Origin: Pseudaquabacterium terrae
GTDB taxonomy: Bacteria; Pseudomonadota; Gammaproteobacteria; Burkholderiales; Burkholderiaceae_C
Length of the DNA: 64,000 bases
Assembly: GCF_013266755.1 (NCBI RefSeq)
Contig: NZ_JABRWJ010000001.1
Location: forward strand, 620,001 to 684,000
Reading direction: 5' to 3'
Shown here: piece after piece, positions 2,887-22,400 of the stretch
Position numbering within the stretch: the stretch's first letter is position 1
Layout: every line of letters starts with the position of its first letter
Notes under the pieces: generated by a model
Databases searched by the model: none
Seen by the model: the letters and a program-made list of their open reading frames with translations, nothing else
What the model was told of the DNA's origin: nothing
Position numbers and translations under genes: made by a program

Positions 2887-4331
2887 ACGCCGTCCTCACG
2901 CTGCTCTCGATCCAGGCGCTGCTCGGCGCCCTCGACAACCTCTGGCACCACGAGCTGCAGGCGAAGCTGCCGCAGCGCGTCTCGGCGCGCCGGGAGCTGG
3001 CGCTGCACGCCGCGCGCGAGCTGATCTACGGCATCGTCTTCATCGGCCTGGCGTGGTTCGAGTGGCGCGGCGCCTGCGCGCTGCTGCTCGCCGCGCTGCT
3101 GGCGGCCGAGCTGGTGATCACGCTGGCCGACTTTCTCGAGGAGGACCGCACGCGCCGGCTGCCGCCCTTCGAACGGCTGCTGCACACCGTGCTGACGATC
3201 GGCTACGGCGCATTCCTCGGGCTCTTCGCGCCGGTGTTGATGCACTGGTCGCAGCTGGCGACGGCGCTGGCGCCGACTTCGCATGGCGGCTTCTCGTGGC
3301 TGTTCACGTCGTTCGCTGTCGGCGTGCTGGCGTGGAGCCTGCGCAACGCGCTGGCGGTGGCGCGGCTGCGGCCGGCCGCGCACGACGGCGCCCCGGCAGC
3401 GCAGCCGCTGCATGCGCCGGCCGTGCTGGTCACCGGCGCGACCGGCTTCGTCGGCAGCGCGCTGGTCGCCGAGCTGCGGCGCGCCGGCCGCCGCGTGATC
3501 GTGCTGACGCGTGATGCGCGCCAGGCGCAGGCGCGCTTCGGCGCCGGCGTGTGGGTGATCGACAGCCTGGCCGCGATCCCGTGCGAGACGCGCATCGACG
3601 CGATCGTCAACCTGGCCGGCGCGCGCGTGCTCGGCCTGCCGTGGACCGCCGCGCGCCGGCGGGTGCTGCTGGCCAGCCGCACCGGTACCACCGCCGCCGT
3701 GGTGGAGCTGATGCGCCGGCTTGAGCAGGCGCCGCGGGTGCTGGTCAGCGCGTCGGCAGTGGGCTACTACGGCGCGTCGCCCGAGGCTGCGTTGTTCGAT
3801 GAGCGCGACGAGGGCAGTGCGCCGCGGCCGGGTGAGTTCCAGTCCGAGCTCTGCGCCGCGATCGAACATGAAGCGCGGCGCGCCGAGGCCCTGAAGGTGC
3901 GCGTCGTGCGGCTGCGTTTCGGCGTCGTGCTGGGGCGTGGCGATGGCGCGTACCCGATGCTGGCGCTGAGCGCGCGTTGGGGCTTCGGCGCCGTGCTCGG
4001 CTCGGGGTGCCAGGCGGCGCCGTGGATCCACCTCGACGATGCCGTCGGGCTGATCCGCTTCGGGATGGCGCAGCCGCGCATTGACGGGCCGGTCAACGCC
4101 GTCGCGCCGGACATCCCGCCGCAGGCACGCTTCGCGCACGCGCTGGCCGCCTCGTTCGGCCGCCGCGTGCGGCTGCGTCTGCCTGCCGCGCCGCTGCGCT
4201 GGCTGGCCGGCGAGATGTCGACGCTGCTGCTCGACGGGCAGAACGCCGTGCCGCGCGCGGCATTGGCCGCGGGGTATGCGTTTCGCCATCCGACGCTCGA
4301 CGGCGCGCTGGCGGCGCTGGCCAAACGCTGA
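2883..4331 (+). CDS. TIGR01777-type NAD-dependent epimerase with N-terminal membrane domain
   Basis: The 482-residue protein has two parts. Residues 1-165 hold about four hydrophobic helices (a DoxX-like or unclassified membrane domain). Residues 175-480 form an extended SDR with the Rossmann motif VLVTGATGFVGSAL and the TIGR01777 signature SASAVGYYG followed by an acidic segment and the APWIHLDDAVGLI motif. Ordinary TIGR01777 proteins (YfcH-like) are about 300 residues, so the membrane part is an extra fused module that ties the enzyme to the inner membrane. It is coupled to the preceding DUF4166 gene. The substrate is unknown. Confidence 0.75.
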   Translation: MNAVLTLLSIQALLGALDNLWHHELQAKLPQRVSARRELALHAARELIYGIVFIGLAWFEWRGACALLLAALLAAELVITLADFLEEDRTRRLPPFERLLHTVLTIGYGAFLGLFAPVLMHWSQLATALAPTSHGGFSWLFTSFAVGVLAWSLRNALAVARLRPAAHDGAPAAQPLHAPAVLVTGATGFVGSALVAELRRAGRRVIVLTRDARQAQARFGAGVWVIDSLAAIPCETRIDAIVNLAGARVLGLPWTAARRRVLLASRTGTTAAVVELMRRLEQAPRVLVSASAVGYYGASPEAALFDERDEGSAPRPGEFQSELCAAIEHEARRAEALKVRVVRLRFGVVLGRGDGAYPMLALSARWGFGAVLGSGCQAAPWIHLDDAVGLIRFGMAQPRIDGPVNAVAPDIPPQARFAHALAASFGRRVRLRLPAAPLRWLAGEMSTLLLDGQNAVPRAALAAGYAFRHPTLDGALAALAKR

Positions 4332-4374
4332 GGAGCAACGGCCGCGCCGCGCGCGCCGCCTGCGCGAAGGACCG

Positions 4375-4569
4375 TCAGGCCTTGCCGGCTTCCTTGCCGG
4401 CGTCCTTGACGATTTCCTTGGCGTCGCCGAGGGTCTTGCGCGCCTGGCCCTTGACCTGCTTCGCGACCCCCTTGGCTTCCTGCGTCGGGCTGTCGATCGC
4501 GCGGCCGAGCTTCTCCTGCGCCTGGCCGATGGCACGCTCGACGGTGCCCTTGACTTGATGCTTGTTCAT
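4375..4569 (-). CDS. CsbD-family stress protein
   Basis: A 64-residue, Lys/Ala/Gly/Gln-rich hydrophilic protein beginning MNKHQVKGTVERAIGQAQEKLG, which is the typical CsbD start, followed by the repeated pattern KGVAKQVKGQARKTLGDAKE. CsbD proteins are small and accumulate in general stress; their molecular role is unclear. The gene lies 50 bp downstream of the catalase on the same strand, so co-transcription is plausible and fits a shared oxidative or stationary-phase stress response. Confidence 0.85.
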   Translation of the reverse strand: MNKHQVKGTVERAIGQAQEKLGRAIDSPTQEAKGVAKQVKGQARKTLGDAKEIVKDAGKEAGKA

Positions 4570-4619: not shown

Positions 4620-7016
4620 TCAGACGCGCGGCGGATCACGCTCGCGCTCGAAGTGCCGCGGCGCTCCAAGCGCCTCGACGAATTGCGCGACGCCCCGGTC
4701 GATGCGGCCGGCATCGACGATCACGACGCCCGCGTCGGCCTTGCCTTCGATCGGCAGATCGGCACGCTGCAGCAGCGTCGCGCCGGCGCCGATCGCCAGC
4801 AGTGGCTTGCAATGGCGCCACGCGCAGCGCAGGCCGTCGAGCGCATGGGCGTCGGCGGCGATCGCCTCGATCGCCGCCTTGCCGTCCGGCACCACGATGG
4901 CGTCGAACAGGAAGCCGGGCTCGTTCTCGAACGACGCATCGGCCTCGATGGTTCCGCCCTCGGCGGTCGCGAAGGGCCCGATGTGCGGCCCGAGCACCCG
5001 CGCGACGGCGCCCCCCTCGGCCAGCTGGCGCTGCAGCAGCGCCAGCGAGGCCTGCGCGACGCCCGCCGCAATCAGCAGCGCGACCTTGCGCCCCTTGATC
5101 GAGCCGTCGCCGGGCCGCGCCAGCAGTGACAGCGCCGGCGAGCGGCTCACCTCCGGCCGCGGCGGCTTCTCGATCGCCCGCGGCATCGGCTCGGGCAACG
5201 GCGCGAGGCCGAGCTTGTCGCCGACCTGGCGCGCCAGGTCCTCCGAGACGTTGCGCAGCGAGGCCACCATGCGGCGCCGGATCGCCGGCACCGTCACCTT
5301 GCTCAGCTCGAAGCGGAAGGCCGCGGCGATGTGCGCCTGCTCCGCGGGCGACTGGCTCTCGTAGAACAGCCGCGCCTGCGCATAGTGCTCGGCGAACTTC
5401 TCCGGCTTGGCGCGCACCTTGGCTTGCGCTTCTTCCGCCCGTTGGCGCGCCGGCACCGAGACGAAGCCCTGCGCCGCACCGGCCTGGAACGGGCAGCCAC
5501 CGCCGAGCGAATTCGGCTCGTAGGCGACGCGCCCGCGCGGGATCGCCTGCCGGTGCATGCCGTCGCGCTGGTTGTTGTGCACCTGCGCGATCGGCGCGTT
5601 GATCGGGATCTCGTGGAAGTTCGGCCCGCCCAGGCGCGTGATCTGCGTGTCGTGGTACGAGTGGATGCGGCCCGCCAGCAGCGGATCGTTCGAGAAATCG
5701 ATGCCGGGCACGACGTTGGCGGTGCAGAACGCCACCTGCTCGGTCTCGGCGAAGAAGTTGTCCGGGTTGCGGTCGAGCACCATGCGGCCGATCGGCCGCA
5801 CCGGCACCAGCTCTTCCGGCACGAGCTTCGTCGGGTCGAGGATGTCGAAGCTGAAGCGCTCGGCCTCTTCCTCGGTGAAGACCTGCAGGCCGAGCTCGTA
5901 CTCGGGAAACACGCCGTTCTCGATCGATTCCCACAGGTCGCGCCGGTGGAAGTCGGGGTCCGCGCCGGAGATCTTGACCGCTTCGTCCCAGACCATCGAA
6001 TGGGTGCCCGCCGTCGGATTCCAGTGGAACTTGCAGAACACCGACGCGCCCTCGGCGTTGACCAGCCGGAAGGTGTGCACGCCGAAGCCCTGCATGGTGC
6101 GGAAGCTGCGCGGGAGCGCGCGGTCGCTCATCACCCACATCAGCATGTGCGTCGATTCGGGCATCAGCGAGACGAAGTCCCAGAAGGTGTCGTGCGCGCT
6201 CGCCGCCTGCGGCATCGCATGGTGCGGCTCGGGCTTGACCGCGTGCACGAGGTCCGGGAACTTCATCGCGTCCTGGATGAAGAACACCGGCATGTTGTTG
6301 CCGACCAGGTCCCAGTTGCCCTCGTCGGTGTAGAACTTGACCGCGAACCCGCGCACGTCGCGCGCGGTGTCCTTCGAGCCGCGCTCGCCGGCGACGGTGG
6401 AGAAGCGCACGAACACCGGCGTCACCTTGCCGGCGGCCTGGAACGGCGCCGCCCGGGTGAGGTCGGTCAACGGTTGATAACACTCGAAATAGCCGTGGGC
6501 GGCCGAGCCGCGCGCATGCACGATGCGCTCCGGGATGCGCTCGTGGTCGAAGTGCGTGATCTTCTCGCGCAGCACGAAGTCTTCCAGCAGCACCGGTCCG
6601 CGCAAGCCGTCCTTCAGCGAGTTCTGGTTGTCGGCGATGACGACACCCTGGTTGGTCGTCAGCTGCCGGCCGGCCGAGTCGACGCGCACGCGGTCGAGTG
6701 ACTCGATCGCCGCGTTCAGCCCGTCGATCGCGATGCTGCCGCTCTTGTCACTGCCGTTGGCTTCGCTCAGCGTGCTGGCCCCGGGCAGCCGCGACGCTGC
6801 CTCGACGGTGTCACCCTCCACCGGTTTCACGCCATTGGCGAAGCCGTGTTCGCTGGGCTTGAGGCTGTTGAACGGCATCGCCGCCGCGAGCTGCTCGACC
6901 TCGCGCGCCTGTTGCGCGGCGGGCGTGTCGCCGCGCGGGTCGTCCGGCACGGGCAGATCGGCCGGGCCGCTGTCGGTCCTGGCGCTGGGGTTCGATGCGG
7001 GCGGCTTGCGGCTCAT
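4620..7016 (-). CDS. katE: Large-subunit monofunctional catalase (HPII type)
   Basis: The product dismutates hydrogen peroxide to water and oxygen with a heme in the cytoplasm. At 798 residues from the ATG at 7016 it has the size of the large-subunit catalases. The segment [22 protein letters not shown] through [21 protein letters not shown] carries the distal catalytic His (about residue 167), [15 protein letters not shown] carries the catalytic Asn, and [15 protein letters not shown] carries the proximal heme-ligand Tyr. Residues after about 600 form the C-terminal flavodoxin-like domain ([28 protein letters not shown]) typical of HPII. The N-terminal extension is longer than that of E. coli KatE. 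A further in-frame start at 7064 is possible; neither has a good Shine-Dalgarno. Confidence 0.95.
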
Positions 7017-7203
7017 GGGAGGCTTCTGACGAGGTGGGTGGTGGCAGCGGTTGGCAAGCGCCATGCCCGTCGCTTGTCACGTTCGCTTGCAAAAGCGGGT
7101 TCGCGCTCGCCACGGGCCGCCGCCGGGCGTGAATTTCGACCGCCGCGGAGCGCTCGGCACCCCGTAACCTCGGAGGTTTCGGCGCCCTTCCTTCCTTCGG
7201 CCC

Positions 7204-7491
7204 ATGAAACTCATCGGAATCTCACTGCGCAAGCCGAGCTTCGGCGAACTCACCGCGGCGGCGGTCATGGCCACCGGCCTCTGGCTGGTCGCGGTCGGCG
7301 GGCTACGCGCCTTTCAGGTCGAGATCGGCCGTGCAGATGCCGGCGCGCTGCTGCTGATCGTGCTGTGGGCCTGCGTTTCCGCGCGGCTGGGCATCCGCAT
7401 CGGGATGGGGCAGCGGCATCTGCTGGCCAACTTGCTGGGCAGTGCAGCGCTGCTGGCGCTCTACGAGCTGGTGCGCGGTTTCATCGCCTGA
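7204..7491 (+). CDS. Small membrane protein of unknown function
   Basis: A 95-residue protein with two or three hydrophobic helices (around residues 17-37, 47-60 and 74-92) separated by short charged loops. No family is recognised with confidence. It is divergent from the catalase, with which it shares a 187-bp intergenic stretch, and lies upstream of another small membrane protein. The ATG at 7204 lacks a convincing ribosome binding site, so the start is provisional. Codon composition is like that of the host genes, which supports real coding. Confidence 0.6.
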   Translation: MKLIGISLRKPSFGELTAAAVMATGLWLVAVGGLRAFQVEIGRADAGALLLIVLWACVSARLGIRIGMGQRHLLANLLGSAALLALYELVRGFIA

Positions 7492-7601
7492 GCAGGGCTT
7501 GTAGGCGCCGGATTACCTCGGCGCACGCCGCGCTCCTATTTCCTTGTCGCCCCGGAATGCATAGCGTTGCAGCATCTCAAACTTCCGTAATGGGGCGCGC
7601 A

Positions 7602-7871
7602 ATGAACATCATCATCTGGTTGGTCGTAGGTGGCCTGATCGGCTGGGTTGCGAGCATGATCATGAAGACGGATGGCCAGCAAGGCCTCATCCTCAACGTG
7701 GTCGTCGGCGTCATCGGCGCACTGCTGGGCGGCTTCCTGCTGGCGCCGATGTTCGGCACCGGCACCATCAACAGCAACGACTTCAGCGTCGCGTCACTCG
7801 GCGTCTCGCTGCTCGGGGCGATCATCCTGCTGGCGATCGTCAACCTGGTGCGCCGCGGCACTGCCCGCTGA
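7602..7871 (+). CDS. GlsB/YeaQ/YmgE family stress-response membrane protein
   Basis: The 89-residue protein consists of three hydrophobic helices with the family pattern: IIIWLVVGGLIGWVASMIM at the start, ILNVVVGVIGALLGGFLLAP in the middle with Gly-rich packing, and LLGAIILLAIVNLVRR at the end. These transglycosylase-associated inner-membrane proteins are linked to stress responses, but their mechanism is unproven. An in-frame ATG at 7590 would add four residues. A strong intrinsic terminator follows directly, so this is the end of its transcript. Confidence 0.85.
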   Translation: MNIIIWLVVGGLIGWVASMIMKTDGQQGLILNVVVGVIGALLGGFLLAPMFGTGTINSNDFSVASLGVSLLGAIILLAIVNLVRRGTAR

Positions 7872-7911
7872 GCGCCGGGAGCGGCGGCGCATAGCGCGCC
7901 ACTGAACCCTG

Positions 7912-7945
7912 AAGCCGCGCGCAGGCGACTGCGCGCGGCTTTCTT
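7912..7945 (+). terminator. Rho-independent terminator
   Basis: Positions 7913-7924 (AGCCGCGCGCAG) and 7929-7940 (CTGCGCGCGGCT) form a perfect 12-bp stem with a GCGA loop, followed by TTTCTT. It lies 40 bp behind the YeaQ-like gene and ends that transcript. Confidence 0.9.
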
Positions 7946-7988
7946 GCGTCCGCCGGATGCCTGGGGGACTCGGTAGACGAGAGGTTGC

Positions 7989-8777
7989 GTGATGCTCGGG
8001 CCGTCGCTCTTCGGGGTTGCTGCCGCAGTTGCAGCAGCTGCTGTTCCCGAAGGCGACGATGGGCACGCTGTACGTGATGGCGCAGCTCGGCGTCGGCCTC
8101 TACATGTTCCTGGTCGGCCTGGAATTCCGTGCCGATCACTTCCGGCAACGCGCGCGCCGCGCGGCGTCGGTGTCGGTAGCCGGCATCGCGGTGCCCTTCG
8201 TGCGGGCCTTCCTGCTCGCGTCGTGGCTGCAGTCGGTACCAGGCCTGTTCGCCGCCAAGACGCGGCTGTTCGAGGCCTCGCTGTTCCTCGGCGCAGCGAT
8301 CGCGATCACCGCCTTCCCGATGCTCGCACGCATCATCCACGAGCGTGGGCTGGCCGGCACCTCGCTCGGCACGCTGACGCTGACCGCGGGCGCCGTCGAC
8401 GATGCCGCGGCCTGGTGCATCCTGGCGATCGTGCCGGCGAGCTTCGGCGGCTCGTGGATGGGCGCCTATGCGGCGATCGGCGGCGACACTGTGTTCGCGG
8501 TCATCATGACCACCGTCGGCCACCGCCTGCTGCGCCGGCTGGCGCATCAGGTACGTCCGGACGCGCCGCTGCCGAGCAGCCCGCTGGCCACGGTGCTGGC
8601 GCTGTTCGCGGCTTGCGCCTTCGCGATGGACGCAATCGGCATCCACGCCGGCTGATGGCGGTGACGAGCACGCTGATGGCGACGCCGGTGTTCAACTGGA
8701 TCGTGCGGCGGCAGCCGCAGGCGAGCGAGGACCCGCTGGCCGTCGGAGGCGCCGCAGATCCCCTCTCTCCAAGTTAG
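7989..8777 (+). pseudogene. Remnant of a CPA2-type cation:proton antiporter
   Basis: Three pieces of one Kef-like antiporter can be read, but not in one frame. MLGPSLFG (from 7992) is the end of the first conserved membrane segment. The match then moves to another frame from about 8017 (LPQLQQLLFP, then AQLGVGLYMFLVGLEF and the long run to AFAMDAIGIHAG), which stops at 8655. The terminal segment LMAVTSTLMATPVFNW then appears back in the first frame to 8777. The first membrane helices, a segment after IGIHA (normally the FGAF..G motif) and the downstream C-terminal part are missing. Frameshift plus internal deletion make this a decayed gene. It abuts the low-GC block to the right. Confidence 0.8.
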
Positions 8778-9303
8778 GGGTTCGAAACGACTCTGAAGTT
8801 GACGCAGCAAGAAACCGTGGGTCCAATGCGGACGCCAACAACAAACAAATAGCGCGGCAGCCTCGGCGCACCAGACGACACTTGAAGTCTGCTGCAGCAT
8901 GCGTGAGATGCATGCTCACCGGCAAGGCGTGGGCTGCGCTAGGGAGGATTCATGCTGCTTTCGGCCGGTCTCATTGACCAACGCTGCGCATTGCGCTGCC
9001 GCTTGACTCGAGCCCACCACCACTTCTGATCCGCTGTCTCCGCTTTCGCTTGCCAGAGTCTCCGCTGGCACGAGTGGGGCGACCGCGTGACCCAGTTTGG
9101 GCGTGGCGACATCGGCCGCTGGCAATTTCCCTGAAATTGCTGTGGCCGGCTGGGCGCGTTCATCGCAGTCGAGTCCATCCAGTCGGCCCCATTCGACGCC
9201 GTCGGCCCGTGGCCGATGAGGATTGCCATGCGCGGAATCCGTTCCGCTCAGCATGTGCGACCCCATCGCGAAGCTTGCCCACAACGAACCAAATGTCTGG
9301 ACA
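8778..9303. other. Gene-poor, lower-GC stretch left of the ATP-grasp cluster
   Basis: About 525 bp with no gene that I can support. Minus-strand frames are open across 8916-9455 and 8939-9229, but the predicted proteins are compositionally odd, match nothing I know and overlap the start of the next gene. Base composition is visibly less GC-rich than the flanking host genes. A perfect inverted repeat sits at 9122-9140. The stretch probably contains the promoter of the downstream four-gene cluster and may include the junction of an acquired segment. Confidence 0.5.
9122..9140. promoter_or_regulatory. Perfect inverted repeat upstream of the four-gene cluster
   Basis: GCAATTTC (9122-9129), a CCT spacer and GAAATTGC (9133-9140) form a perfect 8-bp palindrome in otherwise GC-rich DNA, about 165 bp before the first gene of the cluster. 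It could be an operator or a weak hairpin; no T-run follows on the plus strand. Confidence 0.4.
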
Positions 9304-10335
9304 ATGAAGAAGGAAATCCTGTTCCTCAGTTTGGAGGATGTCGTCTCCGCCGGCGGCTTGGACGTCAAGACCGCCGCAGAGCATCTCGAACACGGCTTCC
9401 GACTGCTATCGCTCGGGCGAGTGCAGCAGCCGATGAAAACGACGCTCAAACCCATCTGCGAGGGCGGCGAATCAGAGATGGGTCTGGTGAACTGCTTGCC
9501 CGCCTACATCAACCTCGGCGAAGAGGAGGTGTTCAGCTGCAAGATTCTGGGGGCGATGCCCCCGAATGTCCGGCGGGGGCTGCCGAGGGCCACTGGACTG
9601 CTCACCCTCTTTGACTCCGTACACAAGAGCCCGCTGTGCGTCATGGACGCACAACTGATCAGCGCGGTACGAACGGGCGCCGTTTCGCTCCTGGCTGCGC
9701 GCCGCCTTGTGTCGCCGGAGACAGAGGAGGTCGGGCTGGTAGGCGCCGGCGTCAACATGCGCACGCAGCTGTTGGCGCTGCATCACGCCTTGCCGTCGCT
9801 CAAAAGGGCTCGCGTGGTCTCTCGCGGAGAATCCAAATATGAGTTCGCCCGCGAGATGGAAAGAATGACGGGAATCCAGATCAAGGCGGTCCAGACGCCC
9901 GAAGACGCAGTCAGCGGCTGCAAGCTGGTCGTGACCTGCCTTCCAAACGTGACCCAACCCGTCGTCAAGGCGCAATGGATCGACAAGGTCGGCGTGACAG
10001 TGTTCAACATCGGGTGCTATGAAGTGGAGGCCACGCTCCTCTCGCGAATGGATCGAATAGTCGCTGACGTCTGGGAGCAAGGCAAACACCGTGGGGTTCA
10101 GACGCACGCCCAAGCCGTGGCCCAGGGCATCATTCCGGAAACAAGAGTGGAAGATCTGGCCCCGATCCTGGTCGGCGAACGTCCGGGCCGCTCGGCCCGC
10201 GACGAGAACATCTTCTTCTGCCCCACGGGATTGGGCTTCGAGGACGGGATTGTCGGATGGAACATCTACAAGTCGGCTCTGGCACGGCGAATCGGGACGA
10301 CGCTCACACTCTGGAACTCTCCAAAATGGATCTGA
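9304..10335 (+). CDS. Ornithine cyclodeaminase / mu-crystallin family dehydrogenase (SbnB-like)
   Basis: The 343-residue protein has the family fold: an N-terminal dimerisation part with EILFLSLEDVVSAGG, the substrate-domain pattern LISAVRTGAVSLLAARRL near residue 120, and the NAD(P)-binding motif VGLVGAGVNMRTQLLAL near residue 142. Members include ornithine cyclodeaminase, alanine dehydrogenases and SbnB, which acts on an amino-acid conjugate in 2,3-diaminopropionate synthesis. The actual substrate cannot be read from sequence. ATG 9304 fits the family start; an ATG at 9253 would add 17 residues. Its end overlaps the next gene by 10 bp. It opens a four-gene unit with ATP-grasp, exporter and serine acetyltransferase genes, suggesting it builds or reduces an amino-acid-like intermediate. 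GC is lower than in the flanks. Confidence 0.85.
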   Translation: MKKEILFLSLEDVVSAGGLDVKTAAEHLEHGFRLLSLGRVQQPMKTTLKPICEGGESEMGLVNCLPAYINLGEEEVFSCKILGAMPPNVRRGLPRATGLLTLFDSVHKSPLCVMDAQLISAVRTGAVSLLAARRLVSPETEEVGLVGAGVNMRTQLLALHHALPSLKRARVVSRGESKYEFAREMERMTGIQIKAVQTPEDAVSGCKLVVTCLPNVTQPVVKAQWIDKVGVTVFNIGCYEVEATLLSRMDRIVADVWEQGKHRGVQTHAQAVAQGIIPETRVEDLAPILVGERPGRSARDENIFFCPTGLGFEDGIVGWNIYKSALARRIGTTLTLWNSPKWI

Positions 10336-11717
10336 AAAACACAGAGGCGTTGGTCGAACAGCGCCTACGCTCCATGTCGAGCGACAAGCGGGCGAAACTG
10401 TCGCTCGAATGTGATCGCCAGGCCAAACTCGAGGGACTGGAAATGGGCGGCCAACCCATCTCGTACCTGAACGTGCCCGTATTGTTCGACCGCTCGGAGT
10501 ATCAGCTGCTGTCAGCAAGACTCGCGAACCTGCTCGATTGCTTCGTCGACCTGGAAGAGTTCTCGCTGACCCTGAAGGGTGCGCCGATCCACGCGCGACT
10601 GATGGAGTCCCTCACGCCAGGGGGGCGTCACCTCGTAAACCAATGCACGCACGAGAGCCGAGCAAGCCTCGTCCGGCGCATGAGGCGAATCGACGGCTTT
10701 TGGGACCCCCAGACCAGCCAGTACAGCGTCATCGAGATCAATCAGGCCGCCCCACTGGGACTGCACAATCACGACGCTCTGCGCCGAATCACGTCGATGG
10801 TGCTCGCCGAGGTCGGGGTTGACAATCCGACACCGTCGATCGCCCCGCAGATCCTGGAGTGGTTCAGGCTCGAGTTCAGCGATCGGGGAAGGCAAGGACT
10901 GCCCCGGCACGTCGCCCTCGTCATTGAGCACGGTTATCCAGGCAAGTTTGCAGACCTCCCTCCGATTGCCCAGGCCATCGAGAAACTCGCCGCGAGCACC
11001 TGGGGCGCCGAACTCCAGATCACGGTATGTTTTCCTTACGACATCAGTCTGCAGAATGGGAACGCGGTGCTGAACGGCAAGGTCGTGGACATGATCTGGC
11101 GAAACTCGGTGTACATGACGACGTACCGAGAGCAAAATCTTCCGATCTCGGACTACGAGTCCATACTGTCCCATCATGAGGACTTCATCGTTATCAACTC
11201 GACTCGTTCGTGGTTGACTCGCACCAAGGAGACGTTGGCGCTCTTCTGGGACGATGCAGCATGTTCCGCGCTGGGTCTGGGCGAGGAGGATCGGGACGCT
11301 GTTCGCCGGCTCCTTCCGAGGACCGTGAATCTCAAGTACTCCCCCGAGGCCCGCAACGAGATCTGCCGAGACCGCGGCGCCTGGGTGTCCAAACCAACGG
11401 ACTCCGGATTCGGTCAGGGCGTGGAGTTCGGGGTCAACCATTCGACGCAGTCCTGGTCCGCCCTTGTGAGCGAGCGGTCGAAGGAGGGATTCGTCTTCCA
11501 GAAACGGGTTGAAGCTTCCCGCAGACGCGCCCTGGCCATTGAGCCGGACGGCGGGCTCTCGGAGAGATTCCTCGAGCTCGACTTCTGTCCTCAGCATGTC
11601 GCCGGGCACTTCTCAGGTACCGCGGTTGTTCGAGGCTTTCCGATGAGTGAGCACTCGGCAGCGGAGCCCATGAATCTCAGCCGGGGTGCCGTTCTCTGTC
11701 ACGCTGCATTCGTCTAG
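10326..11717 (+). CDS. Circularly permuted ATP-grasp-like amide ligase
   Basis: This 463-residue protein shows the pattern of circularly permuted ATP-grasp / glutathionylspermidine-synthase-like ligases. RRIDGFWDPQTSQYSVIEINQAAPLG (near residue 120) is the pre-ATP-grasp motif with the conserved E-x-N. HVALVIEHG opens the next sheet, and LNGKVVDMIWRNSVY follows. KPTDSGFGQGVEFG (near residue 355) is the nucleotide-binding Lys plus glycine loop, FVFQKRVE carries the ATP-contacting Glu, and LELDFCPQHV is the likely metal-site strand. Such enzymes join a carboxylate to an amine through an acyl phosphate. The ATG at 10326 overlaps the preceding gene; a longer frame from 10257 lies wholly within it and is unlikely. 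The family call rests on my reading of motifs; the substrate is unknown. Confidence 0.7.
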   Translation: MDLKNTEALVEQRLRSMSSDKRAKLSLECDRQAKLEGLEMGGQPISYLNVPVLFDRSEYQLLSARLANLLDCFVDLEEFSLTLKGAPIHARLMESLTPGGRHLVNQCTHESRASLVRRMRRIDGFWDPQTSQYSVIEINQAAPLGLHNHDALRRITSMVLAEVGVDNPTPSIAPQILEWFRLEFSDRGRQGLPRHVALVIEHGYPGKFADLPPIAQAIEKLAASTWGAELQITVCFPYDISLQNGNAVLNGKVVDMIWRNSVYMTTYREQNLPISDYESILSHHEDFIVINSTRSWLTRTKETLALFWDDAACSALGLGEEDRDAVRRLLPRTVNLKYSPEARNEICRDRGAWVSKPTDSGFGQGVEFGVNHSTQSWSALVSERSKEGFVFQKRVEASRRRALAIEPDGGLSERFLELDFCPQHVAGHFSGTAVVRGFPMSEHSAAEPMNLSRGAVLCHAAFV

Positions 11718-11727
11718 AACGGTCGGT

Positions 11728-12612
11728 ATGGAACGCGCACCCCCCTTGTCCATCTGGCTGCTGACCGGCATCTGCCTGGTTGCATCCACGCTCGAGCCGA
11801 TTCTGATCAAACTGGGCTACCTCGGCAGCGCGACGCCACCGCAGTTGCTGGTCGTACGCGGGCTGGTGGCGGGGATTTGCGCGCTTCCCTTCATCGGAAA
11901 GATCAGCCCGACATTCGCCGAGCAATTCGGGCGCATCCTACCGGTCTGTGTGATCTTCGTCGTCACGAATGTGTTCTTGATGCTCGCGTTCGCGCATCTG
12001 CCGGTTTCGATCGTCGTCGCGCTGGTCACGTCGACACCGGCGTTCGTCGCATTGGTCAATCAGTGGCGCGGCACCGTTGCGCTGGGCCAGCGGTTCTGGA
12101 TTGGCTTCATTCTCTGCTTCGTCGGGATCCCGGCGACCGTGGGATCCGGCTTCGTCGGCGCTGGAGGCACCGAGTGGAAGGGCCTCATCTACGTTGGACT
12201 CGCGATAGCGGGCTCGACACTCTACCGAACACGAATGGACATGGTCACGAGGCATGTTCGGGCGATACAAGTGTCAGGATGCCTGTTTCTCTTCTGTGGC
12301 CTGACGGCCGCGCTGTGCGCTCCATTCTTCTTGCCTCTTCCCGAAACAGCAGTGCGCTTTGGCGCCGCCGTTGGAATGACCTCGGTCGTCGCAAACGTGA
12401 CGTTCCTTGCGACGCTCGCCAGCCTGGGGTCCACCAGAGTGTCGATGATCGGTCTGCTGCAACGACCGACCGTTGTCGTGGCGTCAGCCGTGGCGCTGCA
12501 CGAGCCATTGACCCTTTCACAGATGGCGGGCATCGCTCTGGTGATGACCGGCGTGTATCTTGCCAAGCCCGAGCCCATCCCACAGCGCCAGCAACCGCAC
12601 GAGCAAGCATGA
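11728..12612 (+). CDS. EamA/DMT-family transporter
   Basis: A 294-residue, very hydrophobic protein with about ten membrane helices in two homologous halves, as in EamA exporters of the drug/metabolite superfamily (the RhtA/YdcZ-like type). The second half includes STRVSMIGLLQRPTVVVASAVALHEPLTLSQMAGIALVMTGVYL, the usual conserved C-terminal EamA region. It begins 10 bp after the ATP-grasp gene and overlaps the acetyltransferase gene by ATGA at 12609. In this context it most likely exports the cluster's product or protects the cell from it. ATG 11728 is preferred over a GTG at 11686, which would lie inside the upstream gene. Confidence 0.85.
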   Translation: MERAPPLSIWLLTGICLVASTLEPILIKLGYLGSATPPQLLVVRGLVAGICALPFIGKISPTFAEQFGRILPVCVIFVVTNVFLMLAFAHLPVSIVVALVTSTPAFVALVNQWRGTVALGQRFWIGFILCFVGIPATVGSGFVGAGGTEWKGLIYVGLAIAGSTLYRTRMDMVTRHVRAIQVSGCLFLFCGLTAALCAPFFLPLPETAVRFGAAVGMTSVVANVTFLATLASLGSTRVSMIGLLQRPTVVVASAVALHEPLTLSQMAGIALVMTGVYLAKPEPIPQRQQPHEQA

Positions 12613-13499
12613 ACGAGGCTCTCACCACCGTTGACATCAGTCGCATCCATGGGCTGTCCACTCTGCTGGAGTCGGAGCATGAAGGTCTGCCCGCCGGTGC
12701 AATGTCGTTGACGCCTTCCGATGTCGACGAGCTCATGAGGTCATTGCTGGACCTCTCGCTTCCACATCGTCGCGCGCGTTCGTTCGGCACCGGAGCCAGT
12801 CGACGCAACTCGACAGCCACCGAAGGCCTGACGCAGGCGCTGAAGCTCCTGTCAGCCGGCATCACGTCGGTGCTGTCCTTGCCCGTTGCGCGCCAATCCA
12901 ACCGCTCCTGGCGAGCTGAAGAAGTTGCAATGGAGTTCCTGGAAGCGATCCCTCGTATTCGCGGACTGCTGATCGAAGATGTGCGGGTCACCTATGAACG
13001 TGACCCTGCAGCCGGCAGCGTCTGGGAGGTGATGCTCGCCTATCCGGGTGTGATCGCCGTCGCGGCGTATCGACTGGCTCACGCACTCCTCGCGCTTGAA
13101 GTTCCTGTCATTCCGAGAATGATGTCGGCATGGGCACACCGAGCGACGGGAATTGACATTCACCCTGCAGCGAAGATCGGGGAGCGACTCGCCATTGACC
13201 ATGGCACGGGTATCGTCATAGGTCAGACAGCTGTGGTCGGAAGCAACGTCAGCATCTACCACGGTGTCACATTGGGAGCCCTGTCGCCAAGAGACGACGC
13301 GAACTCCGACTGTCCACACAGGCGAACGAAACGACACCCGACCGTGGAGGACGACGTGGTTCTCTACGCGAACGCCACCGTCCTGGGCGGTGCCACTGTC
13401 GTCGGGAAGGGCGCCGTCTTAGGCGCCTCGGTATTCGTCACGCGAAGTGTGGCGCCCGGGGCTGTCATCGTTGCCAATGCCAGAGGGCGAAGTGGATGA
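12609..13499 (+). CDS. Serine O-acetyltransferase, EpsC type
   Basis: The 296-residue protein has the EpsC/CysE layout: an N-terminal helical part of about 140 residues, then YPGVIAVAAYRLAHALL and a C-terminal left-handed beta-helix of hexapeptide repeats. IDIHPAAKIGERLAIDHGTGIVIGQTAVVG contains the catalytic His (near residue 196), and YHGVTLGAL and the long RHPTVEDDVVLYANATVLGG repeats follow. It should acetylate L-serine with acetyl-CoA to O-acetylserine. No cysteine-synthase-like PLP gene lies beside it, so here O-acetylserine may feed the cluster's own product rather than cysteine. The start overlaps the exporter gene stop by four bases. Base composition matches the other cluster genes, not the flanks. 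Confidence 0.88.
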   Translation: MNEALTTVDISRIHGLSTLLESEHEGLPAGAMSLTPSDVDELMRSLLDLSLPHRRARSFGTGASRRNSTATEGLTQALKLLSAGITSVLSLPVARQSNRSWRAEEVAMEFLEAIPRIRGLLIEDVRVTYERDPAAGSVWEVMLAYPGVIAVAAYRLAHALLALEVPVIPRMMSAWAHRATGIDIHPAAKIGERLAIDHGTGIVIGQTAVVGSNVSIYHGVTLGALSPRDDANSDCPHRRTKRHPTVEDDVVLYANATVLGGATVVGKGAVLGASVFVTRSVAPGAVIVANARGRSG

Positions 13500-13532
13500 T
13501 CAGCTGTCCGTCTTCATCGCCTTGACGGTGCC

Positions 13533-14411
13533 TCAGCGCCGCTGGTCGCGGCCGATGCCGACCGCGACCAGCGGCAGCTTCAGCGCCAGATAGGCGTCCA
13601 GGTCCACCTGACGCAACTGCCGCGGATGCCGCTCGGTGGCGTCGAAGTAGTCGCGCAGCCGCTGCTGGTACGCCTGCCGGTCCGACGCGGCCGGCGTGCG
13701 CGCCGCCGCCTCGATCGCAAAGAGATAGCGCACCAGGTTGCGCTCGATCAGCCCGCGGATGCCGCCGACCAGGGGCGAGCCACCATCGTCAGCCTCGCTC
13801 GAGAAGCCGACCTTGCCGCGGCCGAAGGTCCCGAGCCAGAGCGTCTGGCTCCAGTCGGCCAGCGGGGTCTGCCGGTAGGTGTAGCTCAGCCGCAGCGCGG
13901 TGCGGGCCGCGCCGGCCGGCGCTGCATCGAGCATCAGGCCATGGTCGTGGGTGCCGAGGAAGCCCTTGGCCGCATGCAACCGCACCGACAGCCGGTCCGT
14001 GGACGCGGTCATCGGGTGATAGGAGAAGTCGAGCTCGTCGGCCTGCTCGGGCGGCTGCGCGAGGTGACGCGCGATCCGCAGCGCGATGCGCGGCATTGCC
14101 GCGCTGCCTGGTGCCGCGGGCGCAGCCCGGCAGCCGGTGTTGCTGATGTGCAGGATCATCGCCGCGCACCACCGCGGCGGGTCGGCCAGCGCGAGCTGCA
14201 CGTCGCGGAACGGGCGATCGATCAGCGCCTCGATCTCGGCGCGCACGACACCGCCTTCGACCTCCGAGCGGATCAGCACCGGCCGCCCGAACGGCTCGAC
14301 CGGTGCCAGCCGCTGCAGCCGGGCGACGAACTCCGGCGCTTCGGCGGGCTGAGCCTGCGCACAGACAGCGGCCATGATCAGCGAAGCCGTGACGACGTGT
14401 GGAAGGCGCAC
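13533..14411 (-). CDS. Exported protein of unknown function
   Basis: A 292-residue protein from a GTG at 14411, giving the secretion signal VRLPHVVTASLIMAAVCAQA with a cleavage site after AQA. ATG 14375 would cut the signal in half, so the GTG is preferred. The mature part begins with PVLIRSEVEGGVVRAEIEALIDRPFRDVQLALADPPRWCAAMILHI, reminiscent of START/SRPBCC lipid-binding proteins, and contains two Cys residues. I do not recognise a named family. The location is probably periplasmic. It is convergent with the low-GC cluster and begins the host-like DNA again; downstream on the minus strand it follows a DUF2917 gene. Confidence 0.65.
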   Translation of the reverse strand: MRLPHVVTASLIMAAVCAQAQPAEAPEFVARLQRLAPVEPFGRPVLIRSEVEGGVVRAEIEALIDRPFRDVQLALADPPRWCAAMILHISNTGCRAAPAAPGSAAMPRIALRIARHLAQPPEQADELDFSYHPMTASTDRLSVRLHAAKGFLGTHDHGLMLDAAPAGAARTALRLSYTYRQTPLADWSQTLWLGTFGRGKVGFSSEADDGGSPLVGGIRGLIERNLVRYLFAIEAAARTPAASDRQAYQQRLRDYFDATERHPRQLRQVDLDAYLALKLPLVAVGIGRDQRR

Positions 14412-14419
14412 GGGAAATC

Positions 14420-14644
14420 TCAGGTGGCGGCCGTGCGCGGCAACAGGCGCAGTTCCGACGCCTCCAGCGCATACACGATCACGGGCCGGTGCTCGTCGGT
14501 GACGAAGCGCTGGCCCGGCTTCACGACGAAGTCGCACGAATCGCAGTCGAGCGTGATCCACAGTGAGCCGCTGAGGCATTCGATCTGCAGGCCGGTGGCG
14601 TCGGGCAGCTTGATCAGGCCGTGGTGTGCCAGGTGGTTGGACAT
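14420..14644 (-). CDS. DUF2917 family protein
   Basis: A 74-residue protein matching the small DUF2917 family: IECLSGSLWITLDCDSCDFVVKPGQRFVTDEHRPVIVYALEASELRLL, a cupin-like run of beta strands with W-I-T and a G-x-R-F turn. No function is known for the family. It sits 8 bp upstream of the exported hypothetical gene and 13 bp downstream of the Bug-protein gene, so the three may form one transcript. Confidence 0.65.
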   Translation of the reverse strand: MSNHLAHHGLIKLPDATGLQIECLSGSLWITLDCDSCDFVVKPGQRFVTDEHRPVIVYALEASELRLLPRTAAT

Positions 14645-16857: not shown

Positions 16858-17916
16858 TCAATGTTGTTGGCGCTCGGCATCCACCAGGTGCCCCAAGCTG
16901 TTGGTCATGAGGCCTGCCATCGCCGTACCGCCGACCGTGGCGATGAGGGCGATCATTTGCTTCTGATCGAAAAGCGCGCGCAAGGTCTGCCACGTGCCGT
17001 TCGAAATGAATGCCTCGCGATGCAATTCATCCGCGGCCTGCAGCAGCACCGCGTGTTGATCACTCCAGCCGCTCGCCGAGGGGCCCGCGGCGACGCGTGC
17101 CAGTTCAGCTTCGGTGAAGCCTGCGGCCTGCGCGGCTTCGGCGTGGCGGGCCCACCCGATCTCATCGCGGACATTCCAGGCCGTGCGCATGATCAGCAGT
17201 GCGCGCGCCTTCGATGGCAGGCGCGATTCGTGCCTGACATAACGTACGAATTGCGCGTATGCGCTGAAGAGCTTCGGATGGTTCACCGTCGCCACCTCGA
17301 TGCGCGGCGACTTCAGCCGCGGTGACGCCGGCCGCTCCGCGACGGCCGGCAATACCAGGTCGCGCGGCAGGCGGTCCTGCAGCCCGGGGTCGAGCTGGAC
17401 GCCGAGGCTGTTCAAGGCCATCGATACGAACTGGTATTGCCCGGCGGTCAGGATCAACGCCAACATCTGCGGGTTTGCGTAGCGCGCGCGCAGCGCTCGC
17501 CAGGTGGCGTCGCTGACCATCGCGTCGCAGCGCAGCTCGTCGACCATGCGCAGCAGCGCGCGTTCGGTGTCGCGCCAGCCCGCGACGTCCGGGCCCTGCG
17601 CGATCCGGTGCAGGTCCGCATCGCTCAAGCCCGCATCGGACTTCGCGATGCGTGCATGCTGCGCCCATTCGTATTCGGACTGGCACAGCCAGCCCATGCG
17701 CAACATCACGATCTCGCGCTCGCGCGGCGGCAGGCCGGACCCGTTCAGGGTGAAGCGTCCGAGCGCGCCGAACGCGCGGGCGAAGTCGAGGTCATGGGCC
17801 AGCGTCTTGTAGATGTTGTAGTCGGGGCTGGCGGCGAGCATCGCTCGCTGGGTGTCATCGGCATCCTGCGGGCCCAGCGGCGCGAGACGCGGTGAGGTCG
17901 GGCGTGGCGTGAACAT
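16858..17916 (-). CDS. Carboxymuconolactone decarboxylase family protein with two tandem domains
   Basis: The 352-residue protein is a duplication: residues about 20-170 and 190-345 each show the AhpD/CMD helical pattern (LPPREREIVMLRMGWLCQSEYEWAQHARIA in the first, LPSKARALLIMRTAWNVRDEIGWARHAEAA in the second). In both copies the C-x-x-C-x-x-x-H redox motif is reduced: the first keeps a single Cys plus the His, the second has no Cys, so peroxidase activity is unlikely. The start at 17916 overlaps the stop of the VOC gene (TGATG). Such proteins frequently occur in oxidative degradation clusters. The precise reaction is unknown. Confidence 0.75.
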   Translation of the reverse strand: MFTPRPTSPRLAPLGPQDADDTQRAMLAASPDYNIYKTLAHDLDFARAFGALGRFTLNGSGLPPREREIVMLRMGWLCQSEYEWAQHARIAKSDAGLSDADLHRIAQGPDVAGWRDTERALLRMVDELRCDAMVSDATWRALRARYANPQMLALILTAGQYQFVSMALNSLGVQLDPGLQDRLPRDLVLPAVAERPASPRLKSPRIEVATVNHPKLFSAYAQFVRYVRHESRLPSKARALLIMRTAWNVRDEIGWARHAEAAQAAGFTEAELARVAAGPSASGWSDQHAVLLQAADELHREAFISNGTWQTLRALFDQKQMIALIATVGGTAMAGLMTNSLGHLVDAERQQH

Positions 17917-18443
17917 CAGACCATCCGGAGGGGATCGCGACCATCCCAATTCAGCGCGGCCTGCTTGAATCGCTCGAAGGTCTCGGCCTTTCCGCCCAGC
18001 GATTCCGAGATCTCGATCATCGCGCTCGGAAAGTCGAGGTGCACGAAATAGGCGAAGCGGCCGCGCATGCTGTCCATGCGTCCGGCGTGGCCTTCGACAT
18101 AGCCGAGCTCCAGCAGGCGCCGGCACCATCGGTCGTACTCATTCACGGTCCAGAAGGCCACATGCTGGGCAATCTCGCCGCTGCGCTCCAGCGAATCCCG
18201 GTACAGCGAAGGCGCATCGTTGCACTGCTGCAGCAGCTCGATCTGGATGTCACCGGATTGCGCAATGGCGCCCGAAATCACCGGCTTGTCGAGTGTCTCG
18301 CCGTAGTACCGGAATTCGACCGGCGTGACGTTCTTTCGATAGAACCACGGGCCGATGCCGAGATCGACCCAATGCCGCATCGCCTTGTCGAGGTCCTTGA
18401 CGACATACCCGACCTGCTTGACGCCGTTGAAATTCGGATGCAT
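17916..18443 (-). CDS. VOC / glyoxalase-superfamily protein
   Basis: A 175-residue protein with the paired beta-alpha-beta-beta-beta modules of the vicinal oxygen chelate fold: VKQVGYVVKDLDKAMRHWVDLGIGPWFYRK for the first and AQHVAFWTVNEYDRWCRRLLELGYVEGH for the second. The usual metal ligands (H/E at strand starts) are only partly visible: the first module has Gln-Val-Gly where methylmalonyl-CoA epimerase has His. It is the first gene of the minus-strand run and lies 254 bp from the divergent SDR gene, so that stretch should hold the promoters of both runs. The substrate is unknown. Confidence 0.75.
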   Translation of the reverse strand: MHPNFNGVKQVGYVVKDLDKAMRHWVDLGIGPWFYRKNVTPVEFRYYGETLDKPVISGAIAQSGDIQIELLQQCNDAPSLYRDSLERSGEIAQHVAFWTVNEYDRWCRRLLELGYVEGHAGRMDSMRGRFAYFVHLDFPSAMIEISESLGGKAETFERFKQAALNWDGRDPLRMV

Positions 18444-18697
18444 GACCGCTTCATTCCTTTGCTTCGAAGACAGACAAGGGCTCGCCCCAGCCACGTTGCC
18501 GCTGACGACGGATGCTAGGGAGCACCACGAGACGGCAAAAGGTGCCGATTGACCGCGCGACGGGTTGGTTTCGGCCAATTGGGGTGGGTGACGCCAATGG
18601 GACAGCGCATGGCGGGGCACGGGCTGGACATTTGGCGGCCTTGCAGCCGAGCTGCTGCCGCAGCGGCTTCGTTCCCCTTCACACCCTGGACAGATCC

Positions 18698-19486
18698 ATG
18701 ACCCGCACCGCACGACAACTCTTCGATCTGAGCGGCAAGACGGCACTCGTCACCGGCGGCTCGCGTGGCCTCGGACTGCAGATGGCGCATGCATTGGGCG
18801 AGGCCGGTGCGCGCGTCATCGTGAGCGCGCGCAAGGCCGGCGACCTCGAAGAAGCCGTGGCTGAACTGCGTGCTGCGGGGATCGACGCTCAAGCCATCGC
18901 CGCCGATTGCTCCCGGGAGGACGAGACCCGTGGCCTGGCCGATGCGGCGATCGAGCGCCTTGGTTGCGTGGACATCCTGGTCAACAACGCCGGCGCCAGC
19001 TGGGGTGCGGCGGCCGAGGAGCATCCCGTCGAAGCCTGGGACAAGGTGATGAATCTCAACATCCGCGGCTATTTCATCCTGGCGCAGCAGATCGCGCGCC
19101 ACTCGATGATTCCCCGCCGCTCCGGCCGCATCATCAACATTGCGTCGGTCGCCGCGCTGAACGGCAACGTGCCCGAGATGCGCACGCTGGCCTACAACAC
19201 CTCCAAGACGGCGGTGCTGGGATTCACGCAAACACTGGCCGCCGAATGGGGTCGCCACAACATCACCGTCAACGCCATCTGCCCCGGCTTCTTCATGACG
19301 AAGCTCACTGCGGGCCTGATCCATTCGCTGGGCGCGGAGCGTATTGCCGCGAAGTCGCCGCTGGGCCGGCTGGGCGACGACGAAGACCTCAAGGGCATCA
19401 CGCTGCTGTATGCCAGCGACGCCGGCAAGCACGTCACCGGCCAGTGGCTGGCGGTCGATGGAGGCGTGAGCGTCGTCAACGGTTGA
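18698..19486 (+). CDS. Short-chain dehydrogenase/reductase
   Basis: A 262-residue classical SDR: NAD(P)-binding TGGSRGLG near residue 20, NNAGASWG near residue 98, a Ser before LAYNTSKTAVLGF (catalytic Tyr and Lys near residues 166-170), and the C-terminal GQWLAVDGGVSVVNG typical of gluconate-5-dehydrogenase/FabG-like enzymes. It opens the plus-strand run and stands 4 bp before the P450 fusion gene, so it may oxidise the alcohol made by the P450. That pairing is an inference from gene order. Confidence 0.9.
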   Translation: MTRTARQLFDLSGKTALVTGGSRGLGLQMAHALGEAGARVIVSARKAGDLEEAVAELRAAGIDAQAIAADCSREDETRGLADAAIERLGCVDILVNNAGASWGAAAEEHPVEAWDKVMNLNIRGYFILAQQIARHSMIPRRSGRIINIASVAALNGNVPEMRTLAYNTSKTAVLGFTQTLAAEWGRHNITVNAICPGFFMTKLTAGLIHSLGAERIAAKSPLGRLGDDEDLKGITLLYASDAGKHVTGQWLAVDGGVSVVNG

Positions 19487-19490
19487 GCGC

Positions 19491-22400
19491 ATGTCGCTGA
19501 CCGTTCCCATCCCCCAGCCCAAGGGCGACCCGCTGATCGGCAACCTGCGCGCCCTGGACAGCGCGGCGCCGATCCAGGGCTTCATGCGTCTGGCGCGCAC
19601 GCTCGGTCCGATCTACCGGCTCGACGTGCTCGGCACGCCGGTGATCATCGTCAGCTCGCAGGAACTGGTGGACGAGCTGTGCGACGAGAGCCGCTTCGAC
19701 AAGCGCGTGGCCGGGGCGCTGAAGTACATCCGCGACTTCGCCGGCGACGGCCTGTTCACGGCCAAGACCGACGAGCCGAACTGGGCCGCGGCGCACCGGC
19801 TGCTGATGCCGGCCTTCGGCCCGATCGGCGTCCGCGGCATGTTCGACCGGATGCACGAGATCGCCGACCAGATGCTGCTGCGCTGGGAGCGCTTCGGTCC
19901 TGACAGCGTGATCGAGGTCAGCGAGGACATGACGCGCGTGACGCTGGACACCATCGCGTTGTGCGCGTTCGACTACCGCTTCAACAGCTTCTACCAGCGC
20001 GACATGCATCCCTTCGTCGGCGCGATGGTGAGTGCGCTGGCCGAAGCCGACGCACGCACGCGGCGCCCCGAGTTCGCCAGCAAGCTGCTGCTGCGCACGC
20101 GCCGCTCGTACGAGAGCGACCAGGCGCTGATGCGCCGCGTCGCCGACCAACTGATCGACGAACGCAAGCGCGATCCCGATGCACCGCAGAAGAATGACCT
20201 GCTAGGGCTGATGCTGCAGGGCCGCGATGCGGTGACGGGCCAGGGCCTGTCGGACGAGAACATCCGTCACCAGCTCATCACCTTCCTGATCGCCGGGCAC
20301 GAGACGACCAGCGGCATGCTGTCGTTCGCGACCTACTTCCTGCTCAAGCATCCGCAGGTGCTGGAGCAGGCCCGCGCGGAAGTGGATGCGGTGATCGGCA
20401 CCGGGCCGCCGCGCATCGAGCACCTTGCGAAGCTGCGCTACATCGAGCAGGTGCTGATGGAGGCGCTGCGCATCTGGCCGACGGCGCCGGCATTCCAGTT
20501 GCGCGCGCACCGGGACACGGTCATCGGCGGGCGCTATGCGATCGGCCGGCGCGACACGGTGGTGGTGCTCACGCCGATGCTGCACCGCGACCCGCGCGTC
20601 TGGGGCAACGACGTCGAGGCATTCCGGCCCGAACGCTTTGCGCCGGAGGCACTGGCGCAACTGCCGCCCAACGCGTGGAAGCCCTTCGGCAACGGGCAGC
20701 GGGCGTGCATCGGTCGGCCCTTCGCGATGCAGGAGGCGATCCTGCTGGTCGCGATGATGCTGCAGCGCTTCGACCTGGTCGAGGAAGATCCGTCGTACCA
20801 GCTGCAGGTGACCGAAACGCTGACGCTCAAGCCCCGCGGCTTTCGCATCCGCGCCAAGCGCCGCAGCAGTCCGTCGTTCGAGCCGCGAGGCGCGGCGCTG
20901 CCGCAAGCCCGCGCGGCGCGGCCGTCGGCCACCGGGCCGCGGACGACCGACGCACGACAGGCCACACCGCTGCTGGTGCTGTACGGCTCGAACGCCGGTT
21001 CGGCCGAAGCCTTCGCCGGACGCATCGCCAACGAAGCCCAGGCGCACGGCTACAGCGCGCAGGTGGGCACGCTCGATGAATTCGCGGGCCGGCTGCCGGC
21101 CGACGGCGCGGTGGTGATCGTCACCGCGTCGTACGAAGGGCAGCCGCCGGACAACGCGCGCCGCTTCGCCGCGTGGCTGGAGTCGCTCGGGCCTGGCGCG
21201 TTGAACGGCGTGCGCTACGCCGTGTTCGGCTGCGGCAACCGGCAATGGGCGCGCACCTTCCAGGCCGTGCCCAAGCGCTTCGATGCGGCGCTCGAAGCGG
21301 CCGGGGCGGCACGCATCGCTGCGCGCGGCGAAACCGACGCCGGCGGCGACTTCTTCGGCCCGTTCGACGCGTGGTGCGGGCAGTTGTGGCCAGCCCTCGC
21401 TGGCGTGTTCGGTCACGTGATGGGCCGTGAGGTGCCAACCGCGCCGGCCGGCCCGCGACTCGAAGTCGAGCTGCTCCCCGGTGGTCGCACGACGGTGCTG
21501 CGCCAGGTCGACCTGCAGCACGGCGAGGTGCTGGACAACCGCGAGCTGGTCGACATGAGCAACCCGCTCGCACGCTCCAAACGCCACCTTGAGCTTGCTC
21601 TGCCCGAAGGCATGCATTACCGCGCGGGCGACTACCTGGCGGTGCTGCCGCACAACCCGGTCGCGCTGGTCAAACGCGCGCTCGAGCGCTTCAGGCTCGC
21701 GCTGGACAGCCAGATCGTGATCCGCAAGCCCGAGCACAGCCTCGCCGCGCTGCCGACGGGTTACCCGGTCAACGCCAGCGAGGTGCTGTTCCACTACGTC
21801 GAGCTGGCGCAGCCGGCCACGCGCGCGCAAGTCGCCGCGCTGGCGGTGGCGACACGCTGCCCGCCGGAGAAGGTCGCGCTGGCCGCACTCGCCGAAGAGG
21901 ACGCCCACCAGCGCGAGGTCCTCGCCAGGCGCGTCAGCGTGCTCGACCTGCTCGAACGCCACGCCTCGTGCGAGATCCCGTTCGCCGCCTTCCTCGACAT
22001 GCTGCCCGCCGCCCGCGCGCGCCAATATTCGATCTCGTCCTCGCCGCTGTGGAATCCGCAGCGCTGCACGCTGACGGTGGCGGTGGTCGATGCGCCGGCG
22101 CTGTCGGGGCACGGCCGCTACCAGGGCATGGCGTCGTCGTACCTCGCCCAGTGCACACCGGGCACGCGCGTGGCGATGGCGGTGCGTCCGTCGAACGATC
22201 GGTTCCGTCCGCCGGCGTCGCTCGAGACGCCGATGATCATGGTCTGCGCCGGCACAGGCCTGGCGCCCTTTCGCGGCTTCCTGCAGGAACGCGCGGCGCT
22301 GGCCGGTGATGGACGCAGCGTCGGGCCATCGCTGCTCTTCTTCGGCTGCGACGATCCCGACGTCGACTTCCTCTACCGCGACGAGCTCGCGGCGTGGGAG

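Follow-up and report, generated by a model that had tools for sequence, protein, structure and literature searches.

Small pathways built around ATP-grasp ligases yield compact bioactive molecules, and they are easily missed when the ligase matches no family model. One of the closest described systems, the D-cycloserine (dcs) cluster, contains a serine acetyltransferase (SAT), an O-ureidoserine synthase dependent on pyridoxal phosphate (PLP), an ATP-grasp ligase, a transporter, and arginase-like and racemase genes; another is the SbnA/SbnB pair of staphyloferrin B. Here we describe a block of four genes in Pseudaquabacterium terrae, at positions 9304-13499 of a 64,000-nucleotide stretch of contig NZ_JABRWJ010000001.1 (contig positions 620,001 to 684,000, hereafter the window), which resembles dcs in bringing together a SAT, an ATP-grasp ligase and a membrane transporter. 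Unlike dcs, the four genes include no PLP-dependent O-ureidoserine synthase, arginase-like or racemase gene, and the block does not belong to that cluster type; it adds an OCD-fold enzyme, and its apparently circularly permuted ATP-grasp protein matches no family model. We propose, with about an even chance of being right, that the block is a horizontally acquired operon making and moving a small metabolite derived from serine, either an amide or a dipeptide-like compound. Each gene comes from a known superfamily; what is unusual is their combination and the divergence of the ligase, with a single example of the gene set to go on. The features are as follows.

9304-10335, plus strand: OCD-like gene (P0001, 343 aa), an NAD(P)-dependent enzyme of the OCD/mu-crystallin family, either an imine reductase or an amino-acid dehydrogenase
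10326-11717, plus strand: ligase gene (P0002, 463 aa), a putative divergent circularly permuted ATP-grasp ligase, probably of the carboxylate-amine type
11728-12612, plus strand: EamA gene (P0003, 294 aa), a membrane protein of the EamA (drug/metabolite transporter) family that probably acts as an exporter
12609-13499, plus strand: SAT gene (P0004, 296 aa), a serine O-acetyltransferase with a long N-terminal part
8780-9303, no strand given: low-GC leader without a convincing gene, delimited by the GC profile

An earlier note on this DNA had described the four genes as overlapping or nearly touching, and this is confirmed: the OCD-like and ligase genes overlap by 10 bases, a 10-base gap separates the ligase and EamA genes, and the EamA and SAT genes share an ATGA overlap. 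None of the four frames has an internal stop, and an alternative start for the OCD-like frame is possible upstream at TTG 9223. Since the reading frames overlap, a single transcript fits the arrangement. The note had also set the base composition apart from the flanks, and its two counts are right (34/60 G+C at 11041-11100 and 44/60 at 21061-21120). The block has 61.3% G+C against a mean of 69.7% (standard deviation 1.7, minimum 66.3) in non-overlapping window stretches of 4,196 bases each; only 6 of 1197 window stretches of block length are as low, all six overlapping the block. Composition is similar across the four genes (60.6-62.0%), and their third-codon-position GC is 67-77% compared with 78-93% in six flanking frames, one of which (2694-4535) lacks a Pfam match and may be no gene. 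The two ranges nearly touch, at 0.770 for the OCD-like gene and 0.776 for a CMD-domain gene. The GC profile for which the note had called places the start of the low-GC stretch near 8780, some 500 bases ahead of the first gene, and its end at about 13500. The interval 8780-9303 is probably an upstream control region and the left boundary of the foreign DNA; a consensus scan of it gave no sigma-70-like site, and it had no match among plasmids.

The foreign base composition, the overlap of the frames and the lack of a copy in the sampled kin together point to a horizontally acquired operon, although acquisition is something that we infer, with no donor and no mobile element found for the block. 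Its DNA had no match among phages and a single 84-base match among plasmids, within the SAT gene; the window holds no tRNA, and no convincing repeats frame the block, with only short imperfect ones in 8500-13800. On the plus strand at 8017-8655 lies a Na+/H+ exchanger fragment (PF00999 positions 42-231 of 375), which ends near the onset of the G+C drop and has the look of a degraded gene bordering the foreign DNA on its left. Such a neighbour would suit passive cargo, that is, foreign DNA whose four genes do not form one pathway and happen to lie beside a decayed antiporter gene, and so would the failure to find a second example of the gene set. However, the common strand, the overlapping starts and stops and the similar GC exceed usual chance linkage, and all four frames are free of internal stops; we consider passive cargo unlikely.

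The identities of the SAT and of the OCD/mu-crystallin-fold dehydrogenase are firm. Hexapeptide repeats in a SAT core, together with relatives that are SATs, place P0004 among the serine O-acetyltransferases, and all 22 of its PDB rows at E<=1e-10 are named serine (O-)acetyltransferase (best 9u39, 6lcn and 3f1x). It reaches neither equivalog cut-off, scoring 167.7 bits (E 2e-49) against 210.65 for TIGR01172 (cysE) and, narrowly short, 147.1 against 150 for the NCBIfam EpsC model; of the earlier label, EpsC-type SAT, the enzyme name thus stands and the subtype does not. Matches to P0004 occur in 267 plasmid records, all below 60% identity. A second SAT elsewhere in the genome is 48% identical to P0004 over residues 120-288, and because the host has this enzyme, the extra copy may serve more than cysteine supply. 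P0003 matches PF00892 in two stretches (E 6.1e-13, 49.7 bits, cut-off 28.2), as a two-repeat EamA protein should, which upholds the family named in the earlier note; that it is an exporter is probable. NCBIfam returned general transporter models only (TIGR00950, E 3.4e-8, 33.2 bits against a cut-off of 230.2), and neither plasmids (threshold 1e-5) nor PDB sequences (threshold 0.1) yielded a match to P0003.

Together, the SAT, the ligase and the transporter suggest that the cell releases a small amide derived from serine. In the pathway that we propose, the SAT would activate serine by making O-acetylserine, which would be converted to a beta-substituted alanine by an unlinked CysK/CysM-type enzyme of the host or by some other host reaction. 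Using NAD(P)(H), the OCD-fold enzyme would form or break a C-N bond. The ATP-grasp ligase would spend ATP to couple the product with a carboxylate or an amine, and the EamA protein would export the result. The order of steps and the substrates are conjectural, as is the PLP step, which would have to be borrowed because, as the earlier note had said, there is none in the block: none of the four proteins matches a PLP-enzyme family in Pfam or NCBIfam. When the SbnA model was run against the organism's own genome (99.6% complete), three genes scored 190-231 bits (best 230.6), and it is from these scores that we call them CysK/CysM-like. It is conceivable, though we hold this only tentatively, that the pathway is a new one free of non-ribosomal peptide synthetases (NRPSs), in which an OCD-fold dehydrogenase, a highly diverged permuted ATP-grasp enzyme and a dedicated SAT would yield an exported amino-acid amide (an antimetabolite, metallophore or osmolyte), the ligase representing a family of its own with an altered active site.

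E. coli EamA is active on O-acetylserine, and glutathione is made by ATP-grasp enzymes. The chief rival explanation is a sulfur or cysteine overflow module, in which the extra SAT would raise O-acetylserine, either this compound or cysteine would leave through EamA, and a cysteine adduct for storage or detoxification, such as a gamma-glutamyl- or glutathione-like thiol, would be formed by the ligase and the dehydrogenase. The SAT and EamA genes are adjacent and overlapping, as such a module would have them, and passages of one source list E. coli EamA as a cysteine export system (PMC11050555). Yet the NCBIfam matches of P0003 are no more specific than the general models given above, and an overflow module leaves the dehydrogenase unexplained. 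We regard such a module as unlikely.

For P0001, the earlier call of an OCD-like dehydrogenase is borne out by a whole-length match to PF02423 (E 7.2e-43, 147.2 bits, cut-off 24), which makes it a member of the OCD/mu-crystallin family, and by an AF2 model (predicted local distance difference test score, pLDDT, 91.4) with template-modelling (TM) scores, on the query, of 0.88 and 0.90 to the two best PDB entries of that family. The best PDB matches are P2C reductase (6t3e), SbnB (4mp6) and alanine dehydrogenase (1omo), with CmnK, the L-2,3-diaminopropionate (Dap) enzyme of capreomycin, lower down the list. Four columns, K80, R123, D255 and D314, are invariant in its 16-row alignment. P0001 falls short of SbnB membership (TIGR03944, E 2.2e-41, 142 bits, cut-off 326.9) and is not grouped with two SbnB rows in a tree whose fork is unresolved; as modelled, it resembles pyrroline-carboxylate reductase or alanine dehydrogenase at least as closely as it does SbnB. 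At E<=1e-30, one of 250 genomes of the order has a match, and this is the organism's own; plasmid matches are numerous (725 records) but all below 60% identity, the best at 32.8%.

These results bear on a Dap-type route (SbnA/SbnB or CmnK-like), in which a borrowed PLP enzyme would turn O-acetylserine into an amine conjugate, P0001 would free Dap, and P0002 would acylate or couple it. The place of SbnB and CmnK among the structural matches, the E-value with TIGR03944 and the three CysK/CysM-like genes fit this route, whereas the bit score and tree position of P0001 and the lack of an SbnA above the cut-off in the genome speak against it, as does the substrate of SbnA, which is O-phosphoserine and not O-acetylserine. 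We consider it improbable. IucA/IucC, present at the two annotated SbnB plasmid loci examined, is absent among the four genes. The analogies to D-cycloserine and SbnA/SbnB drawn in the earlier note are loose.

For the ligase P0002, neither Pfam and NCBIfam nor PHROGs and PADLOC gave a match, and PDB sequences gave chance-level matches alone (E 0.67 and 0.91). The ATP-grasp call does not show in the family libraries and rests on remote homology. Partial matches in same-phylum genomes, at 23-38% identity, led to an unnamed family, A6, whose 12-sequence profile hhalign aligned with residues 133-399 of P0002 (probability 98.5%, E 1.7e-15), which places P0002 in the ATP-grasp superfamily by profile; the controls P0001 and P0004 gave probabilities of 0.1 and 0.2%. 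The A6 rows were picked for resemblance to P0002, which favours a match, and controls that are unrelated proteins of the same locus leave this bias in place. The 12 relatives exclude L006, L010, L031, L053, L056, L058, L060-L062 and L064-L069, together with two matches in genome G1036 that had no locus. At E up to 0.1, A6 members match the ATP-grasp models PF14397 (5/12), PF02655 (4/12) and PF14403 (4/12), with best E-values per model of 0.0002-0.002 (0.002 for PF14403, circularly permuted type 2); since these matches are weak, the link from A6 to ATP-grasp is itself weak. Against the PDB, the A6 profile gave no match beyond one row at E 1.2. The family itself (L002, L003, L004, L018, L052 and others) appears to be a proteobacterial permuted ATP-grasp family with GQTTNFRTPGGGF-like tails, with weak Pfam matches only and no convincing NCBIfam name.

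P0002 shares with A6 the order of motifs and nine key residues, E137, N139, K301, K356, P357, G361, G363, Q392 and D419, which are identical in all eight rows of an alignment of P0002 with seven relatives (A2; 18-23% identity to P0002). Its E-x-N motif (I136-E137-I-N139), which we take to be Mg-binding, precedes K301 and K356-P357, whose lysines are presumably ATP-binding; this is the permuted order, which marks the permutation. P0002 does not keep the conserved tail or the KxDxR motif of the family: D419 remains, while the K and R retained by 7/7 relatives in A2 and by 12/12 A6 rows correspond to E417 and C421, where the alignment is uncertain; the hhalign alignment ends at residue 399, and the region beyond aligns poorly. 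We treat this loss as divergence within the ATP-grasp fold and not as exclusion from it. A single-sequence structure model gave a mean pLDDT of 34.5 and a predicted TM score of 0.25. The circularly permuted ATP-grasp named in the earlier note is favoured by the profile alignment and motif order, and not by the family libraries or the KxDxR motif.

Searches for the same set elsewhere returned no second copy. No close relative of P0002 was found in the genome samples, which overlap and each count the organism's own genome: matches at 0.001 occurred in 3/200 genomes of the family, 2/369 of the class and 21/398 of the phylum, and at 0.01 in 18/399 of the order. The best non-self match was 28% identical over residues 176-384 (E 3e-8, phylum sample). 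Nine of the order-level loci (L005, L007-L009, L011-L013, L016 and L017) were dropped as short pieces inside long frames, of which L005, the only one read, resembled a molybdenum hydroxylase by eye. L015 was dropped for two stops within its match, and L020 for matching 59 residues of a 978-aa frame. P0002 had no match in plasmids, phages or the phage library, and a scan of genome_contigs gave no relative among the at least 80 candidates listed, so that absence is weakly supported by it. None of the four proteins matched the defence library. Seven examined plasmid places with P0001 or P0004 matches lacked this gene set, three of them having little or no useful annotation or other pathways. In two same-genus relatives, the 19.9 kb around the matching flank lacked matches to all four proteins; a DNA search of 21 genomes of the genus (own included), scoring 14 of up to 705 candidates per genome, found matches in 14 genomes, mostly pieces below 100 bases, with a few of these pieces inside the block and the longest matches in flank sequence.

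The P0001 subfamily was sought in genome_contigs with a DNA pattern of its C-terminal motif (YKxA...G..LxLWxxPxW), which motif-less relatives would escape. Viral contigs, scanned at the protein level, gave no relative. All 18 resulting loci hold an OCD relative (best identity 38.4%), partial in four (L076, L083, L085 and L092), and none holds a relative of P0002, P0003 or P0004 within the 4.4-8 kb seen per locus, several having the OCD gene at the edge of the stretch with one flank outside view. Neighbours, listed for five loci (L089 without a domain scan), varied: opine dehydrogenase, proline dehydrogenase (L091), or a PF02786-type ATP-grasp with a methyltransferase. The last comes from an Acidobacteria metagenome-assembled genome, where an OCD-fold gene with the same C-terminal motif (4874-5929 of L082, extended as L103) overlaps an ATP-grasp gene (5869-7239), followed by a methyltransferase gene, all within 4874-7996. 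This pairing counts in favour of the operon that we propose. It differs in that its ATP-grasp matches CPSase_L_D2 (PF02786) and not the permuted family; its contig (C17) has no hexapeptide (SAT-type) match, against 21 in that genome, and no EamA gene was seen by eye in the 16 kb read. The set is possibly another small amide pathway. In two Bacillota genomes, the OCD-fold gene lies directly downstream of an octopine/opine dehydrogenase gene (PF02317; L087 1399-3556 and L088 4292-6554), and at L087 a DctM gene of a TRAP transporter adjoins them; these pairs possibly serve opine use.

Several results weigh against an operon for a serine-derived amide. No second genome with the set was found and the association rests on one locus, so that the word cluster in the earlier note lacks comparative support: no close relative of the ligase appeared in the genome samples, and the other three genes accompany 0/18 dehydrogenase loci within the stretches seen. 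The examined OCD relatives stand partly in catabolic-looking settings, beside opine dehydrogenase (L087 and L088) or proline dehydrogenase (L091 and L021). The organism's genome has no SbnA-type PLP enzyme above the cut-off of 349.95, and the four genes include no regulator, NRPS or resistance gene. With the K and R of KxDxR lost, the activity or chemistry of P0002 may differ. Overall, what the earlier note observed is confirmed and what it made of it is partly supported. Literature searches joining OCD, ATP-grasp and SAT with biosynthetic gene cluster, OCD and ATP-grasp with EamA, or SbnB and diaminopropionate with ATP-grasp found no report, in a coverage that leaves most subscription journals outside; one source, in the part available, describes diverse neighbourhoods of peptide ligases in which OCD and ATP-grasp genes occur, and not the present four-gene set (PMC2922099).

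P0002 would exemplify how such pathways escape notice, as a profile-supported ligase, unmatched in Pfam and NCBIfam, beside a supplier of activated serine and a transporter. If it works as proposed, 4.2 kb of DNA would suffice to move a new metabolite pathway between bacteria; with one example known from the present work, the block counts as a lead and still falls short of a system.

Two minor features lie beyond the block. Just past the SAT gene, a 17-base inverted repeat (13538-13575, 94% pairing, 4-base loop) sits within the 3' end of a converging frame (13533-14579) and may act as a terminator. A lesser G+C dip in the window, at 17900-18700, surrounds the CMD-domain gene and its neighbour.

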